Of a stretch of DNA of 64,000 bases, positions 55,722-61,827 are shown piece after piece. Location: contig NZ_CP034072.1 in assembly GCF_003855255.1 (NCBI RefSeq), positions 930,001-994,000 of the forward strand, written 5' to 3'. Each line of letters begins with the position of its first letter. The stretch's first letter is position 1. The position numbers were made by a program, and so were the translations under genes. This stretch comes from Mycolicibacterium nivoides. Its GTDB lineage: Bacteria > Actinomycetota > Actinomycetes > Mycobacteriales > Mycobacteriaceae. The notes beneath the pieces are model-generated. The model saw only the letters and a program-made list of their open reading frames with translations. It searched no databases and had not been told where the DNA came from.

Positions 55722-55932
55722 TGGTCCTCTTCTCGATTATTCGGTTGTGCACGGAACCGGCTGAGTTCCGCTGTCCGATCCACTGGGGCTGAGATCAACG
55801 CGCAAGGTACAGCGTTGCGTCAAGCAATACGGGCAATTCGGGTGGAGTGGAAGTTGTCGTAGAGGTAGGTGATTACGCTATCGCTGCGCGGTCTCATTGG
55901 TTGACCGTTTGTGTGCGGGAGGATGGCGCGGA

Positions 55933-57150
55933 ATGGCGATAGACCCTCAGCTGCTGGCGGCGATCGACGGCGCGGTTCGTGCCGAGCCGGCAAATCGCGC
56001 TCTACGGCTGCACCTGGCAGATCTGCTCCTAGATGACGGGCAGTACGTCGCCGCGCTCGGTCACTGCGAAATTCTCCTGCAGCAGTCCCCTGAGGACGCC
56101 GAGGTCCTCGCGCGTAAGACCGCGGCGCTCGATGGATTCGGCATGCCCACTGTCACACCGCAACCGACCGTTCCCGAGCAGGTTGCCCCCGCGCCACAAC
56201 CGGCGCAGCTGCCGCAGACCGAATCATGGGCCACGGCCGACGACGATGACGACGCCATCCCGGTCAGCGACTTGATGGAGATCGTCCGGCCGGAACTCAC
56301 GCTCGACGATGTGGCCGGGATGGAGGACGTCAAACAACGGCTTCGGATGAGCTTCCTCGAACCCATGCGCAATGAAGAGCTGCGCAAGTCGTTCGGGCAT
56401 GCACTGCGATCCAGCCTGCTGTTGTGGGGACCGCCCGGTTGCGGCAAGACGTTCCTGGCCAAATCGCTGGCCGGCGAACTCGGGCTGTTCTTCATCCATG
56501 TCGGCATCGCCGACATCCTCGACAAGTGGCTCGGCAACAGCGAGCGCAACATCAAGAGTGTCTTCGAAGAAGCGCGACAGATGCGCCCGACCGTGTTGTT
56601 CATCGATGAGCTCGACGCACTCGGCCACAAACGCGCGCAGACATCGAGCTTCATCCGCAGCATCGTCAACCAATTGCTGCTCGAACTCGACGGGGCGACC
56701 AGCGACAACGAGGGGATATTGGTGCTCGGGGCGACCAACCAGGTGTGGGATGTCGACCCCGCGCTGCTGCGTCCTGGTCGCTTCGATCGAAAGGTGCTGG
56801 TGCTGCCGCCCGATCGACCCGCCAGAGAGGCGATCCTGGCGCACCATCTGCAGACCAGCCCGACAGAGCGGCTGAACCTGGCGGCTGTGGCCGACCGCAC
56901 CGAAGGGTATTCGGGGGCGGATCTGGCGGGTCTGTGCCGCCACGCTGTCGAGTTCGCACTGCACGACTCGGTGCGACGCGGTTCCACCCAGCCGGTCAAC
57001 CAGCGCCACCTCGACACGGCACTGAAGGACTCCCAGGCCAGCACGGCGTCGTGGTTCAGCCTGGCGCAGAACTATGTCGCGTTCGCCGAAAACCGGGACG
57101 AATACGCCGAACTCGAACGCTACCTCGCGAGGAGGAGGAAGCGGCGATGA
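55933..57150 (+). CDS. AAA+ ATPase with N-terminal TPR segment
   Basis: The protein has 405 residues. Residues 1-65 form TPR-like helices (LRLHLADLLLDDGQYVAALGHCEILLQQSPEDAEVL). A Pro/Gln linker and a five-Asp run follow. The AAA domain is of the FtsH/Cdc48/proteasomal type: Walker A GPPGCGKT at 166-173, Walker B LFIDELDALG with Asp 225 and Glu 226, and the second region of homology GATNQVWDVDPALLRPGRFDRKV with two arginines. No protease motif (HExxH) is present. ATG 55933 has GGAGG upstream. It overlaps the next gene (ATGA). Confidence 0.88.
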   Translation: MAIDPQLLAAIDGAVRAEPANRALRLHLADLLLDDGQYVAALGHCEILLQQSPEDAEVLARKTAALDGFGMPTVTPQPTVPEQVAPAPQPAQLPQTESWATADDDDDAIPVSDLMEIVRPELTLDDVAGMEDVKQRLRMSFLEPMRNEELRKSFGHALRSSLLLWGPPGCGKTFLAKSLAGELGLFFIHVGIADILDKWLGNSERNIKSVFEEARQMRPTVLFIDELDALGHKRAQTSSFIRSIVNQLLLELDGATSDNEGILVLGATNQVWDVDPALLRPGRFDRKVLVLPPDRPAREAILAHHLQTSPTERLNLAAVADRTEGYSGADLAGLCRHAVEFALHDSVRRGSTQPVNQRHLDTALKDSQASTASWFSLAQNYVAFAENRDEYAELERYLARRRKRR

Positions 57151-58289
57151 CGTCGATGGCCGACCGTGCCGCGGAGAAGGTCCGGGTACTTCTCGATCTC
57201 GACCGCAACGAGGAGGCAGCCCAGGCGGCACGCGCCGGATTGCAGAGCGACCCGAACAACGCCGAGCTGTTGGGACTGCTGGCCTCTGCGCTTCACGCGG
57301 ACGGTCACGCGCGCGAGGCCCGGAAGTGGACCGAACGCTCCCTTGCCATCGACCCGAACCAGGCTTGGGTCCATGACGTCCGGGCGCGAGCCATCCTCAA
57401 CGGTGGCGGAAAGGCCAAAGAGGCAGTCGAATCGGCCAGTGCGGCAGTGAAACTCGCGCACACCCACGCCTACTACCGCTACACGCTCACGCGCACCCAG
57501 CTCGAGGCCAAACAACGCAAGGCCGCCCAGGCAACCGCGGAGTCGATCCGCACAGTCGCCCCGGCTTCGCCGTTGGGCCCGCTCTCACAAGCGCTCGTCG
57601 AGATCGACCGCGCCAAGTTCTTCAGCGTTCACCCGGTGTGGGCAGTGGTGGCAGTCGTGGTGACCCGGGGTGCCGTCCTGCTTTTCTGGGCCATCGCGTG
57701 GCTCTACATGTACTTTCGGCGGCGCGGCCCACTCCGGCGCGCCGACGCCCACCTCATGGAAGCGTTGCGCCTCAACCCAGGGGACGCCTTCACGCATCGG
57801 GTCGCTGCCGAAGTCGCCCGATACCGTTTCCGGTTCGTCCGCGCCGTCGATTCCACACTCGCGTCGGCAGCAATTGACGCCGACATGGTGGACGCAACCG
57901 AGCTGGCGCGCGGCATCGTGCGCAGGACCACGGCGATCACGGCCGTCACCTTCGCCGTCTGGCTCGTCCTCATGCTGACGCTGTTCAGCACCATGAGCCA
58001 CTCAGCCGTGATGTCCATCCTCGGTACGGTGCTGGTGATCGCCGCAGCGGCGGGCGTCACCTGGCTTTATGAGGAACAGACCAAACGACTACCGCCGGGC
58101 GTCCTGCGACTCGTCCGCCGACGCTGGGGCCTGCCGGCCACGGTGCTCGTGATCGCGGCGTGGCTATCGCTCATGGCCGCGAACAACCCGCTGAGCATCG
58201 CTGTCCCTACGGCGGTCGGCGCTGTGACCCTGCTGGCTGGCTTCTGCGTATTGACCGTGAAGCTGGTGTCCGCCAGGCGTATTGGCTGA
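57147..58289 (+). CDS. TPR-repeat multi-pass membrane protein
   Basis: The protein has 380 residues. The first 150 are TPR-like (EEAAQAARAGLQSDPNNAELLGLLASALHADGHAREARKWTERSLAIDPNQAWVH). One membrane helix follows at about 160-185, a second TPR-like stretch (ADAHLMEALRLNPGDAFTHRVAAEVARYRF), and then about four to five more membrane helices to the end. Coupling by ATGA to the AAA ATPase strongly suggests a complex in which the membrane protein anchors the ATPase. Function unknown. Confidence 0.8.
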   Translation: MTSMADRAAEKVRVLLDLDRNEEAAQAARAGLQSDPNNAELLGLLASALHADGHAREARKWTERSLAIDPNQAWVHDVRARAILNGGGKAKEAVESASAAVKLAHTHAYYRYTLTRTQLEAKQRKAAQATAESIRTVAPASPLGPLSQALVEIDRAKFFSVHPVWAVVAVVVTRGAVLLFWAIAWLYMYFRRRGPLRRADAHLMEALRLNPGDAFTHRVAAEVARYRFRFVRAVDSTLASAAIDADMVDATELARGIVRRTTAITAVTFAVWLVLMLTLFSTMSHSAVMSILGTVLVIAAAAGVTWLYEEQTKRLPPGVLRLVRRRWGLPATVLVIAAWLSLMAANNPLSIAVPTAVGAVTLLAGFCVLTVKLVSARRIG

Positions 58290-58321
58290 TCCGAGAGATG
58301 GAAGTCTGTGACTCACCGGCG

Positions 58322-60673
58322 TTATGGCTGGGGCAGGTACCAGTGTCGGCCCACTGCCCATCCGAGGAAACGTCGGCCCGTACCCGCCGGCACGGTGCCG
58401 GTCGCTGCGAATGTCTTTCCGCCGATGACGTGGTCCAGTCCGTCAATCGCGGGCCGGAATTGGTTGTGGATGCCGGCAGCCCGGGCTTCGTCGTGCAGCA
58501 GCCCCACCTGTGACTGTTGCACCGCAGGATCGCAGAAGCTGAGCAGGAAGATTGCCTGACGCCAGGCGTATGCGGCGTTCTTGATTTGGATCAGTGCGAC
58601 GTGCCAGTCATGGGTGGGTTGTGCGAGTCGTCGGATAACCCAGGTGAATGTGTTGCGGACCAATTGGGGTGAGCTATCGCGCAACTGGTCAAGGAGGTCG
58701 AGCTCGTACACGAGCGTAGCAAGGTTATGGGTGGTAAGGATCTGGCTTTGTTCCAGAATGGCGCCGTTGCGAGCGACCCAGGAGCCGTTGCGGGGTTGAT
58801 ATTCCGTGGCGCCTGCCTCTTCGGCTCGCCTAGCGCACACCTGAGCGAAGTCCTCTGCTGTCGGCTTTCCCCATCGTTTCGGGGCGTCGCTTCGGGCCGC
58901 CCAGAACCAAGCAGGCGGGAGATCGTAGTAGTCGGCGTAGAGGGTGCCGGCCATGGTGCGGCTAGCGATAGCAGCGGCGCTATGCCATTTTGAGGTGAAG
59001 GTGCCCATGAAGATGTCAGCGGCGACTTCCTCCACCAGCGGCAGTTGCAGCCCGGATTCGGTCGCCAGCGTGCCGAGTTCGCGGACCAGTGAGTTGGGCA
59101 AGATGGTGTGGGGAAACGCAGTCAGGGCAAGCATGCTGGCTTGTCGCAGAGATTGCCGGGCCGCCTTGGCGTTGTCCGCGTGCCGAGATCGGCATGGTTG
59201 CAGCGCAGCGATCCACGGCAATTCCTCAAAGCGCACCTGGTGTTCGAGGTTGAGGAGCAGCAGGCTACGACGGCGGCGGAACGCGGTGTAGGTCTGCTCG
59301 TAGAGGCCGGCCAGCACCGGATCGCCGATGCTTGCTGCAGTAAGCCGTGACGTCAGCTGCGGCAGCACGATCGCGAGCACCTCGCTGGAGCTGATGACGC
59401 CACGGCTCACCAACTCATCCACGGGCGCTTCTAGCGCGCGAGTTGCCTTCTGCAGCAAGTGTTGCGGGATCGGTGTCCCCGTGGGGATGCTGTCGACTGG
59501 CTCATCGGCTTCGGTGACGTCGGCGGCGATCGAATCTAGCGAAGGCACACCTGCGTCCGCGGGGTAGCGGTCCAAGCGTCGGGCGAGCACGCGGGCCAGC
59601 GCGGCGTATGTTGGCGCGTTGGCGATTCTGAGCTGAGTCGCTCGGAGTGTGTCTCGGTGCTTAGAGCCGGCGGCTCCGTGCCGGGTGATCGTGTTCGCCA
59701 GAGCGCGACGGATCCCGCCGACCTCATGGGCGGGCAGTGTTTCACCCCCGTTGGGGCAGCTTTCAAGAGCGCGGTGCAGCGTGGCGAAGTTGCTCTTGGG
59801 GTGGGCGTGGCGACCAACGAATTCATCACTGCTGCATGCTTGCGCGAAGTCGGCGAGCCAGCGTGCCCTATCGTGCGCCCACTTTGGCGGCCATTGTTGG
59901 CAGGGCCAGCCTCCATGCACGGCTCGAGTTCCGTCGCGGTGAGGCAATTCACCCTCAACTGTGGTGGACCACAGCGCTACAAGTCGGTCATACAGTGGGT
60001 TCCATACGGCCAGCGTTGCCCGCATCGTAGCGATCTGGGGCGGCACTGACACCGCTCGTAATGACTGTGCCGTCTGCGTGGCAGAGGCCAGCCGCACCGC
60101 AGCCCCCGACAAGCGGGCCACCGACTCGAACCGTGGGGTGAACCTGAGCCGGTTCATGAACGGCCTCAGTTCTGCGACAAGGTCCAACGCTTGTTCTGGG
60201 AAGTCGTTGTCCAACAACAGCACTACGACGCTGAGAGCGGCCTCTTCAGGTATCTCCACGCGGTAGTGGCCGCTATGCAAGGCCTCGCGCAGCCGCGTCT
60301 GCCCGGCATCGCTTAGAAACCACAGATTGAGCCGTTCACGCTCATTCGCACCCGGGGTATCGCCGGGCAGCGTTGTCAGCAGCGCCATTTCGTCGTCATC
60401 GAGTGCGCTCTCCGCCAGATACCGTCCGGTGGCGAAGCCCCCGTGGGCGACCTCCAAGGTCACCCAAACCGGAGTGTCGGCGACAGGTGTGCGATTGCCC
60501 ACGGAAATCTGGCCGCTGGCGATCCCGAACACGACATCTTCCCAGCGTCGTACTTTCTGCCGCACCCGCTCACGGTCCGCGGCATCGCCCAGCTCAACTG
60601 CCCGGGCCATCGCGCGGTGCAGCTGCTGGGTCGCGTACGCCAGGGACGCGGTGGGGTAGTGCTCGTCGGGCAC
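58322..60673 (-). CDS. Large protein of unknown function, downstream of two tRNA genes
   Basis: The 783-residue protein is soluble and mostly helical, with no signal peptide, membrane helix or nucleotide-binding P-loop. Conserved-looking blocks are ADTPVWVTLEVAHGGFATGRYLAE near residue 65, LNLWFLSDAGQTRLREALHSGHYRVEIPEEAAL near 120, RRRRSLLLLNLEHQVRFEELPW near 475, and RFLGWAVGRHWYLP at the end. I recall similar unannotated proteins in Streptomyces, but this is not verified. GTG 60673 has GGAG 7-8 bases upstream and lies only 24 bases after the 3' end of the tRNA-like gene at 60698-60769 on the same strand. Expression from the tRNA promoter is therefore likely. Confidence 0.75.
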   Translation of the reverse strand: MPDEHYPTASLAYATQQLHRAMARAVELGDAADRERVRQKVRRWEDVVFGIASGQISVGNRTPVADTPVWVTLEVAHGGFATGRYLAESALDDDEMALLTTLPGDTPGANERERLNLWFLSDAGQTRLREALHSGHYRVEIPEEAALSVVVLLLDNDFPEQALDLVAELRPFMNRLRFTPRFESVARLSGAAVRLASATQTAQSLRAVSVPPQIATMRATLAVWNPLYDRLVALWSTTVEGELPHRDGTRAVHGGWPCQQWPPKWAHDRARWLADFAQACSSDEFVGRHAHPKSNFATLHRALESCPNGGETLPAHEVGGIRRALANTITRHGAAGSKHRDTLRATQLRIANAPTYAALARVLARRLDRYPADAGVPSLDSIAADVTEADEPVDSIPTGTPIPQHLLQKATRALEAPVDELVSRGVISSSEVLAIVLPQLTSRLTAASIGDPVLAGLYEQTYTAFRRRRSLLLLNLEHQVRFEELPWIAALQPCRSRHADNAKAARQSLRQASMLALTAFPHTILPNSLVRELGTLATESGLQLPLVEEVAADIFMGTFTSKWHSAAAIASRTMAGTLYADYYDLPPAWFWAARSDAPKRWGKPTAEDFAQVCARRAEEAGATEYQPRNGSWVARNGAILEQSQILTTHNLATLVYELDLLDQLRDSSPQLVRNTFTWVIRRLAQPTHDWHVALIQIKNAAYAWRQAIFLLSFCDPAVQQSQVGLLHDEARAAGIHNQFRPAIDGLDHVIGGKTFAATGTVPAGTGRRFLGWAVGRHWYLPQP

Positions 60674-60697
60674 GACAGTCTCCAGAATTAAGGGGTG

Positions 60698-60769
60698 ACC
60701 TGGTGGTGAGGTTCGAACTCACGCCCTCCCGGTTACGAGCCGGATGCTCTGCCGCTGAGCTACACCAGG
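60698..60769 (-). tRNA. tRNA-Thr(CGU)-like, atypical
   Basis: A full 72-base cloverleaf can be drawn. The acceptor is CCTGGTG/CACCAGG and the D stem GCTC/GAGC with loop AGCGGCA. The anticodon stem TCCGG/CCGGG holds loop CTCGTAA (anticodon CGU, Thr). The variable loop is five bases, and the T stem GTGAG/CTCAC has loop TTCGAAC. Odd points are C at position 1, U as discriminator, and no encoded CCA. It lies 22 bases after the tRNA-Arg-like gene and 24 bases before the large ORF. True amino-acid identity is uncertain. Confidence 0.8.
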
Positions 60770-60791
60770 TTGCGACATGGCGGTCGCGTCG

Positions 60792-60863
60792 ACATGGAGG
60801 CGGGGATCGAACCCGCGCCCTCCCGGTCCGAAGCCGGGCGATCTACCGCTGATCTACTCCATG
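60792..60863 (-). tRNA. tRNA-Arg(UCG)-like, atypical
   Basis: This is a 72-base cloverleaf. The acceptor is CATGGAG/CTCCATG and the D stem GATC/GATC with loop AGCGGTA. The anticodon stem CCCGG/CCGGG holds loop CTTCGGA (anticodon UCG, Arg codon CGA). The variable loop is AGGGC, and the T stem GCGGG/CCCGC has loop TTCGATC. UCG is not a usual arginine anticodon in actinobacteria, where inosine-modified ACG reads CGA. The expected arginine identity base A20 and an A/G discriminator are missing, and CCA is not encoded. It is first in a row with the tRNA-Thr-like gene. Confidence 0.75.
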
Positions 60864-60874
60864 ATGGCGAATCG

Positions 60875-60880
60875 ACGCTA
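60875..60880 (-). promoter_or_regulatory. Possible -10 element for the tRNA pair
   Basis: On the minus strand this reads TAGCGT (TANNNT consensus), preceded by TGC, and lies 11 bases before the 5' end of the tRNA-Arg-like gene. No good -35 was seen. If real, it would drive both tRNAs and the 783-residue gene. Confidence 0.35.
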
Positions 60881-61052
60881 GCAGAAGGGACCATTGCTGG
60901 CCGGCGATTTCGGCGTGGGGCGACTTGGTAGCTGTAACTGATCAGGGCTCGACCCGCAGTGGGCTTCGCGTGGCGGCTGAAAGACACGTATCAGCCTCGG
61001 GATGCAGATCCCCGAGCATCCCGTAGTGGTCAACCAGAAGTCAGGATTGCAA

Positions 61053-61379
61053 TCACTTCCTGAATTCGGCTGCAGCCTGATTGCGACCCTGTTGCATCTT
61101 GGCGAGGTCAACCAGCTCACCGTAACCCTTGGACAGTGCTGCAGGGTCTGCGGCGTTTGTCGCCACCCACGAAAGAAGCTGGTCGGCAATGAGATCTACC
61201 ATCTCGCCACGCGATTGATCCCGCAAATCAAGCATCAGGACATTGTTTTCATTCAGCTCGTGAATTTCCTGGCGCGCTGGCCCCGCCGGCAATGTGTCCT
61301 CAAGAAAATCGAACAAGAAGCTGGTCATCGAACTCTTCCATGACCAGTTACCGTGCTGGAGACGAACAAAACCGCCCAT
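61053..61379 (-). CDS. Small hypothetical protein
   Basis: The 108-residue protein has an ATG at 61379 preceded by GAGAGG. A second ATG at 61328 with GGAAG upstream is also possible. The sequence is acidic and helical (FLFDFLEDTLPAGPARQEIHELNENN, then LSWVATNAADPAALSKGYGELVDLAKMQQ). No family was recognised. It lies upstream of the tRNA pair on the same strand, about 190 bases away, at the edge of the accessory segment. Confidence 0.55.
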   Translation of the reverse strand: MGGFVRLQHGNWSWKSSMTSFLFDFLEDTLPAGPARQEIHELNENNVLMLDLRDQSRGEMVDLIADQLLSWVATNAADPAALSKGYGELVDLAKMQQGRNQAAAEFRK

Positions 61380-61827
61380 GCAGTCCTCTCATGTCACCGC
61401 GGATCCGCAGCATGCACACCCCGTGACACAGTCGGTTGCCCAGGGCGGCACATACCGTTCAAGTAAGTGTGGACCCAGTACGCGGATCTTTGAACAACGT
61501 ATGTACAACCGCATCATGAGTGTGCCCAGTTCCGGTTTCTGAGTCCACCCGTTTATAAAGTCAGGCTTGTTTGATCAGATTCAGTGGATGCGGCAGGCCA
61601 TGAAGAAACATGCGCTTGTTGTTCAGTCGATCGTCGATGGACGTCACGACGGTATAGGCATTTGGCCGACCTCGGGCACACCTGGACTTCCTTTTATTCA
61701 CAGACTTCTGCGGTTGCATGGCAGCCGACACACAGACTCGGCACCGCGTTCGGCCGAATGAACGGCGGGCGGCCGCATACCGTTTCACACTGGAGGAAGT
61801 CCAGCGGCGAAGGGGAGTGCGACCAGG
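61380..61827. other. Non-coding stretch between the accessory segment and the peroxidase gene (448 bases)
   Basis: No convincing gene was found; short open frames here lack ribosome sites and protein-like composition. Base composition is less GC-rich than the flanks between about 61460 and 61700. It presumably carries promoters for the genes on both sides. No attachment-site duplication could be identified by eye. Confidence 0.55.

Follow-up and report, generated by a model that had tools for sequence, protein, structure and literature searches.

Structured RNAs encoded directly ahead of a co-oriented protein gene, sometimes in tandem, are a feature of type III toxin-antitoxin systems such as ToxIN and TenpIN and of AbiF with its RNA, the toxin of the type III systems being a small endoribonuclease of the ToxN kind. 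A different partnership is found in bacterial Ro and YrlA, where a tRNA-like Y RNA with its Y RNA stem is joined to a helical RNA-binding protein containing a TROVE domain. Normally, one tRNA body serves one amino acid identity with the anticodons belonging to it, a missing G1:C72 pair together with a missing A73 would be expected to hinder ordinary charging under the rules of tRNA identity, and Lys UUU is counted among the targets of anticodon nucleases. Finally, phage tRNAs have been proposed to resist such nucleases (PMC10264068). Here we describe a locus from a stretch of 64,000 nucleotides (nt) of Mycolicibacterium nivoides (contig NZ_CP034072.1, positions 930,001 to 994,000), referred to as the window, where two tRNA-like RNAs are followed on the minus strand by the gene of a 783-residue protein. 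By comparing homologous loci, we conclude that RNAs and protein constitute a dedicated module with a conserved pairing, whose most telling feature, invisible in one locus taken alone but shown by the same comparison, is an anticodon loop that changes rapidly on a fixed body. The placement of tRNA-like RNAs with a fast-changing decoding loop ahead of a protein without recognized fold points to a so far undescribed RNA-protein system. A fixed tRNA-like body with a faster loop and one conserved protein across several phyla forms a pattern that our searches of an open-licence PMC library without bioRxiv did not show, and no such RNA-protein pair is named in what they returned, PMC9897764 and PMC10264068 included.

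Pairing of tRNA-like RNAs with a 783-residue protein

In the window, RNA 1 (60791..60863, minus strand; type CATGGAG..., anticodon UCG) and RNA 2 (60697..60769, minus strand; type CCTGGTG..., anticodon CGU) are called tRNA-Arg(UCG) and tRNA-Thr(CGU) by ARAGORN, and both match the Rfam tRNA family RF00005 over its full length (66.3 and 66.2 bits, E ~3e-12 each) in the Infernal-type check that a previous sequence-only reading of this DNA had proposed. The protein gene extends from a GTG at 60673 to a stop ending at 58322 (58322..60673, minus strand), and the order of two RNAs and a large protein on the same strand, as originally read, is borne out by ARAGORN, Rfam and the coordinates of the open reading frame (ORF). 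The close tandem layout equally stands, with gaps of 21 nt between the RNAs and 23 nt between RNA 2 and the GTG for boundaries of 73 nt, in place of the 22 and 24 bases given before, which fit boundaries of 72 nt. Both RNAs begin with C, carry a U at position 73 and lack an encoded CCA, as had been noted and can be read from the letters of the window, and each contains an anticodon loop of seven bases. Their predicted complete cloverleafs are confirmed by ARAGORN, Rfam and the covariation across 46 relatives, against which stands the minimum-free-energy folding of each RNA alone, which does not return the exact cloverleaf (z -0.98 and -1.65).

Homologous loci were gathered from a scan of genome contigs (80 of 88 loci kept), from plasmids (6 loci) and from whole-genome searches, with L001, L089 and L116 left out as repeats. 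ARAGORN by itself, with no model of ours involved, identifies a tRNA gene ahead of the protein in 75 of the 81 loci L002-L082 and in 29/29 loci of the series L093-L122 minus L116. Since the former 81 loci contain few other tRNA genes (four, and one tmRNA, beyond two antisense calls overlapping upstream tRNA-like genes), the upstream pairing is more than chance. A covariance model termed R1, built from 46 RNAs, was run on known protein loci, covering 87 loci and then the window with 46 others, and detects a co-oriented match just upstream of the protein in 125 of 134 loci (near-copies included), with matches in the 46 source loci being partly by construction. In the 121 of these loci that are contained in the alignments A3 and A4, the RNA is at most 250 nt away from the protein match, and in 115 at most 100 nt; L005, L055, L057 and L081, which also have an upstream match, are outside these alignments and hence absent from the loop, pair, layout, acceptor and elbow counts. 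Among the nine loci without R1 match, L058 and L061 are truncated and lack upstream sequence and L133, L135 and L136 are fragments lacking the protein start, which leaves L046, L051, L077 and L079. A testable set of 128 loci, from which L058, L061 and the start-less fragments L133-L136 are omitted (of these, L134 has an RNA), contains 124 loci with one to three tRNA-like genes just upstream on the same strand, near-copies again included. The hosts of the 128 testable loci comprise actinobacteria, Pseudomonas, Myxococcota, Acidobacteriota and others. If RNA and protein did not belong together, tRNA-less neighbourhoods would be expected in most genomes; the opposite was found.

The distribution of the protein family is patchy. 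It was detected in 0 of 36 other genomes of the same genus, in 4 of 396 genomes of the phylum including the window's own, and in 44 of 297 genomes of the bacterial family of G049 (decayed copies included), with one copy in each of ten genomes checked. The protein was not found in 50,697 phage records searched with tblastn, and none was confirmed in a pattern scan of IMG/VR. When searched in the 297 genomes at E 1e-16 with stricter filters, at which weak matches are lost, R1 identified 42 genomes, of which 38 contain both RNA and protein and four the RNA only; six contain the protein only and 249 neither (Fisher p 4.9e-37, kinship uncorrected). Together, the upstream RNAs in 124 of 128 loci and this co-occurrence strongly support the earlier proposal of a single unit made up of RNA and protein. 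In three of the protein-only genomes (G502, G692 and G747), RNAs of 74-78 bits are present that give no match at this cut, and the other three (G574, G587 and G734) hold protein fragments only. The RNA-only genomes comprise a solo RNA (L160), two loci with a second protein family (L161 and L163) and a tRNA-Val (L162). The solo RNA, L160:1883-1955, shows no protein trace within the 6 kb examined, and in L134 an intact RNA (L134:2534-2606) precedes a decayed protein, the RNA having outlived its partner.

In 47 of 108 loci, a TAnnnT hexamer occupies position -16 or -17 from RNA 1. The window contains a -10-like hexamer TAGCGT (60875..60880, minus strand) 17 nt before RNA 1, at the site where TAnnnT clusters in relatives; a consensus scan of 60600-61060 found neither a sigma-70 promoter nor a terminator. 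One RNA is present in 62 of the 108 loci, two in 45 and three in one. The spacers between RNAs (n=47) span 1-38 nt except for two of 106 and 132 nt, and the distance from the end of the last RNA to the estimated start codon has a median of 25 nt (minimum 0, maximum 167, 105 loci). For these layout counts, as for the pair test and the within-locus test described below, 14 loci with protein identity of at least 99.5% to another locus were dropped, which are kept in the 134. Judged from its position, the hexamer together with the short spacers suggests a single transcript, and the arrangement fits the prediction that RNAs and protein would be expressed from it jointly. The very short distance to the start codon might also be expected of a tRNA-like cis element in the 5' untranslated region, through which the protein would control the mRNA encoding it, a function that we regard as very improbable in light of the fast change of the loop, the tandem copies and the downstream location of the RNA in the second protein family.

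RNA body and anticodon loop

In alignment A2, which contains 46 RNAs, 99.5% of cells are paired and 17 of 21 pairs have changed on both sides, showing a shared tRNA body whose predicted fold is maintained. C32 and U33 are invariant in 138 distinct RNAs, and the loop counts seven bases in 120 of them, six in 15 and five in three. At the first pair of the acceptor stem, C-G occurs 123 times, U-A 15 times and G1:C72 never, and position 73 is occupied by U (103), G (20) or C (15) and in no case by A. With G1:C72 and A73 both missing, ordinary charging appears doubtful, and the RNAs are probably not charged. The same acceptor ends, in conjunction with loops of 5-6 nt in 18/138 RNAs and of 8-9 nt, with one much longer, in the second family, fit neither decoding nor ordinary charging, and two functions offered by the sequence-only reading, namely anti-phage replacement tRNAs and aminoacyl donors, are not supported. 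The roles of substrate, guide or decoy, which it also offered, may apply.

The elbow combines GG in the D-loop with UUC in the T-loop in 116 of the 138 RNAs, AG with GGC in 10, AG with UGC in three and other forms in nine, and the changed forms include Streptomyces, Embleya, Curtobacterium and two Myxococcota loci. The joint change of D-loop and T-loop suggests that the elbow may serve as a recognition site for the partner protein and not for the general tRNA machinery. In L083-L088, L072, L018 and L028, GGC or UGC stands in for the T-loop UUC, and mostly AG for the D-loop GG, amounting to a rebuilt tRNA elbow.

The RNAs thus resemble canonical tRNAs of RF00005 in their cloverleaf with D, anticodon and T arms, in U33, in the mostly seven-base loops and in the GG/UUC elbow of 116/138, while differing by 29 anticodons on one body, loops of 5-7 nt, the absence of G1:C72 and A73 and the presence of one protein family alongside. 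That they would be ordinary extra tRNAs adjoining the gene by chance, or tRNA copies from an integration site, is in line with the calls of both window RNAs by ARAGORN and Rfam and with the succession of G36-G37 and U36-A37 as in real tRNAs. Such an origin is hardly credible given the loops of 5-6 nt, the lack of G1 and A73 in all 138 RNAs, the many anticodons on one body and the association with a single protein family. In the genome to which the window belongs, R1 assigns 94.5 bits to RNA 1 and 90.0 to RNA 2, separating them by 21 bits from the best of 35 further matches (69), a difference that is partly by construction with both RNAs being among the 46 of the model; five stretches around high-scoring further matches contain Val, Arg, Pro, Gly and Trp tRNAs.

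The variability of the RNAs is concentrated in the anticodon loop, where 66 forms of 5-7 nt are found among the 138 distinct RNAs and 29 anticodons among the 120 with seven-base loops. Seven identical bodies bear two to four different loops each, and with 29 anticodons on one body type the rule of one body per amino acid identity is broken. To quantify the rates, we compared disjoint pairs of loci with equal RNA number and a protein identity of 70-98% (27 locus and 36 RNA pairs), excluding proteins split into several pieces and those whose match spanned fewer than 600 profile positions. Across the 36 RNA pairs, positions 34-37 accumulate 0.285 differences per site compared to 0.022 in the rest of the molecule, a 12.8-fold excess with gaps counted as differences, and the loop has changed in 18 pairs. 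Ratios of 20 to 52 times from close pairs were set aside as biased by the removal of identical rows. In L020/L027 and L041/L080, three loop changes are accompanied by an unchanged body, and RNA 1 of L026/L109 displays three differences in the loop and 0-1 in the body. Between the window and L003, RNA 1 is identical, including its hypervariable positions 34-37 (UCGG; 60828..60831, minus strand), whereas RNA 2 carries the anticodon CGU (34-37 CGUA; 60734..60737, minus strand) in the window and CUU (CUUA) in L003, besides three other changes. Because proteins that are 96% identical here carry different RNA 2 loops, changes of the loop are not tracked by the protein. We place no weight on the fact that loops differ within loci (0/46 multi-RNA loci agree), the chance of which is 30% for 45 two-RNA loci.

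The loops still look like those of tRNAs, as judged from the absence of A34 in the 120 seven-base loops and from the preferences at positions 36-37, where G36 is followed by G37 in 55/56 and U36 by A37 in 21/42 cases. A constant scaffold with a short, fast-changing segment, a protein indifferent to the loop and the longer loops of the second family would all suit a guide, in which three to four or more loop bases of a tRNA-like adaptor would base-pair to a codon or a different RNA, and a changed loop would redirect an otherwise unaltered protein. We consider this bold alternative to the bait reading given below unlikely, since three to four bases give no unique address outside the ribosome, since it does not explain why A34 is avoided or why positions 36-37 show preferences and since nearby mRNA is not enriched in loop complements, with 17/137 found in the spacer and the initial 90 nt of the protein match versus 16.0 in shuffled sequences.

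The 783-residue protein and a second family

The description of the 783-residue protein as uncharacterized was justified, with no family match in Pfam, NCBIfam, PADLOC and PHROG at the thresholds applied and no matching sequence in the PDB. Its AlphaFold2 model, obtained from an alignment of 54 sequences with a mean predicted local distance difference test (pLDDT) of 88.7 and a predicted template modelling score of 0.83, is nearly all helix and has no clear structural counterpart in PDB or viral fold libraries. The combination of a tRNA-like RNA with a helical protein is shared with Ro and YrlA, in contrast to which Pfam scans yield no match to a TROVE or vWA domain, the former being absent from the matches of 54 family members at E 0.5 and structural absence not being proof, and the RNA is a plain cloverleaf of 73 nt. 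There is also little room for a Y RNA stem, with the model ending at position 73, the start codon following at a median of 25 nt and the hexamer preceding by 16-17 nt. The proteins of L127, L128, L129, L130 and L075 contain extra sequence near profile positions 302, 469 or 96.

Two of the RNA-only genomes led to a second family of proteins of about 445 residues, adjoined by one or two similar RNAs (L163:3906-5243 and L161:4197-5462, minus strand; further members L164-L171 and L173-L179). It is present in 9/150 genomes of that bacterial family and 2/396 of the phylum, with one fragment in each set, and in seven plasmid records, six of which were examined; hosts include Streptomyces, Hymenobacter and Miltoncostaea plasmids. 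A tRNA-like RNA is found in 17/17 full-length loci (L161, L163-L171 and L173-L179), located downstream in 16 and upstream in L175, and those downstream loops that were read by eye consist of 6-9 nt beginning with CUCU. The upstream RNA of L175 (L175:4322-4407; 40.9 bits), on a Miltoncostaea plasmid, has its loop enlarged to more than 9 nt and lies near two peptidyl-tRNA hydrolase genes and one RNA ligase gene. In L172 and L180, both fragments with stop codons, ARAGORN finds no RNA. The second protein has no Pfam match above the cut-off, and its model (pLDDT 71.2) is mostly helical, weaker than that of the 783-residue protein and without fold match. A profile comparison of the two families reveals no significant similarity (probability 0.3 and 0.4%) and does not support a likeness of motifs noticed by eye (YTAxRR; WNxxxxAYNAAR versus KNAAYAWRQ).

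With a structured RNA directly before a co-oriented protein gene, sometimes in tandem, the locus resembles ToxIN, TenpIN and AbiF, and its patchy, plasmid-borne occurrence could equally be that of a type III-like toxin-antitoxin system, in which the upstream RNA binds and silences a toxic protein. Distinct from these systems are the full tRNA fold, the all-helical protein of 783 residues, for which no toxin family was matched, the RNA located downstream in 16/17 loci of the second family, the solo RNA of L160 without protein and a fast-changing loop that an antitoxin should not require, and such a role thus appears distinctly unlikely to us. The occurrence of tRNA-like RNAs next to at least two protein families without detectable sequence similarity might define a new class of RNA-protein systems, in which a tRNA scaffold carries the anticodon loop as swappable address and a change of a few loop bases would retarget the complex to a codon, an RNA or an enemy nuclease. 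Although doubtful at this stage, this idea would, if true, describe a very compact retargetable RNA-protein system.

Proposed mechanism and genomic surroundings

As preferred but tentative reading, which we consider possible without calling it probable, the RNAs would serve as bait or sensor tRNAs for anticodon-cutting enzymes. A promoter just upstream would drive one transcript in which one to three tRNA-like RNAs precede the protein-coding part and from which the RNAs would be excised and held by the all-helical protein in a putative ribonucleoprotein. Recognition of the constant RNA body by the protein is suggested by the constancy of this body, its covariation and the matched changes of D-loop and T-loop. 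The anticodon loop, shown to be the part that evolution keeps changing, would probably be presented outward and offered to anticodon-cutting enzymes from phages, rivals or mobile elements, in a molecule built to avoid charging and use in translation, and the protein would either read the loss of the bait or be released by it. Both the patchy spread and the plasmid copies count in favour of a module acting in this way. The phage tRNAs of PMC10264068 are comparable in that changes of the anticodon loop are tied to tRNA-cutting enzymes, while the RNAs described here are bacterial and tied to one protein family, the protein of which was not found in the phage records or by the viral contig scan. 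If true, the bait reading would define a bacterial sensor for anticodon nucleases.

Several observations weigh against the proposed bait function. The loop is unchanged in 18/36 RNA pairs, and Pseudomonas pairs mostly retain CUU, contrary to a uniform turnover. Short and long loops make poor tRNA mimics, and known nuclease targets are not favoured, with the Lys UUU anticodon found once in 120. No nuclease or signalling domain was recognized. The loci L046, L051, L077 and L079, from Planctomycetota (twice), Armatimonadota and a Gracilibacteria bin, show no RNA on the contig available, so the protein may work alone or with an RNA encoded elsewhere. In a FastTree phylogeny, which excludes the same incomplete proteins as the pair test and in which L058 was labelled RNA-bearing though lacking upstream sequence, a single branch (support 80) sets these four to one side, L077 itself being long-branched. 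Finally, defence genes are not clearly enriched near the module. In 121 of 156 ORFs selected near 45 loci, PADLOC at E 1e-8 identifies JetD, ZorB, SduA, viperin and PDC-M42C once each and mad2 twice, counts that have no background rate behind them.

Among the 30 largest clusters of neighbours, genes recur mainly in close kin. In the window, the module is part of a stretch of ~5.9 kb (55829..61758) that is absent from the genome G021 of the same genus, where 58 nt are found in its place; other comparisons place its edges at 55838 and 61716. Shared with L003, this stretch also holds a 108-residue ORF and, on the plus strand, an AAA ATPase with TPR, which has an IetA-like PADLOC match (E 1.3e-36), and an adjoining TPR protein (55897-57150 and 56745-58289).

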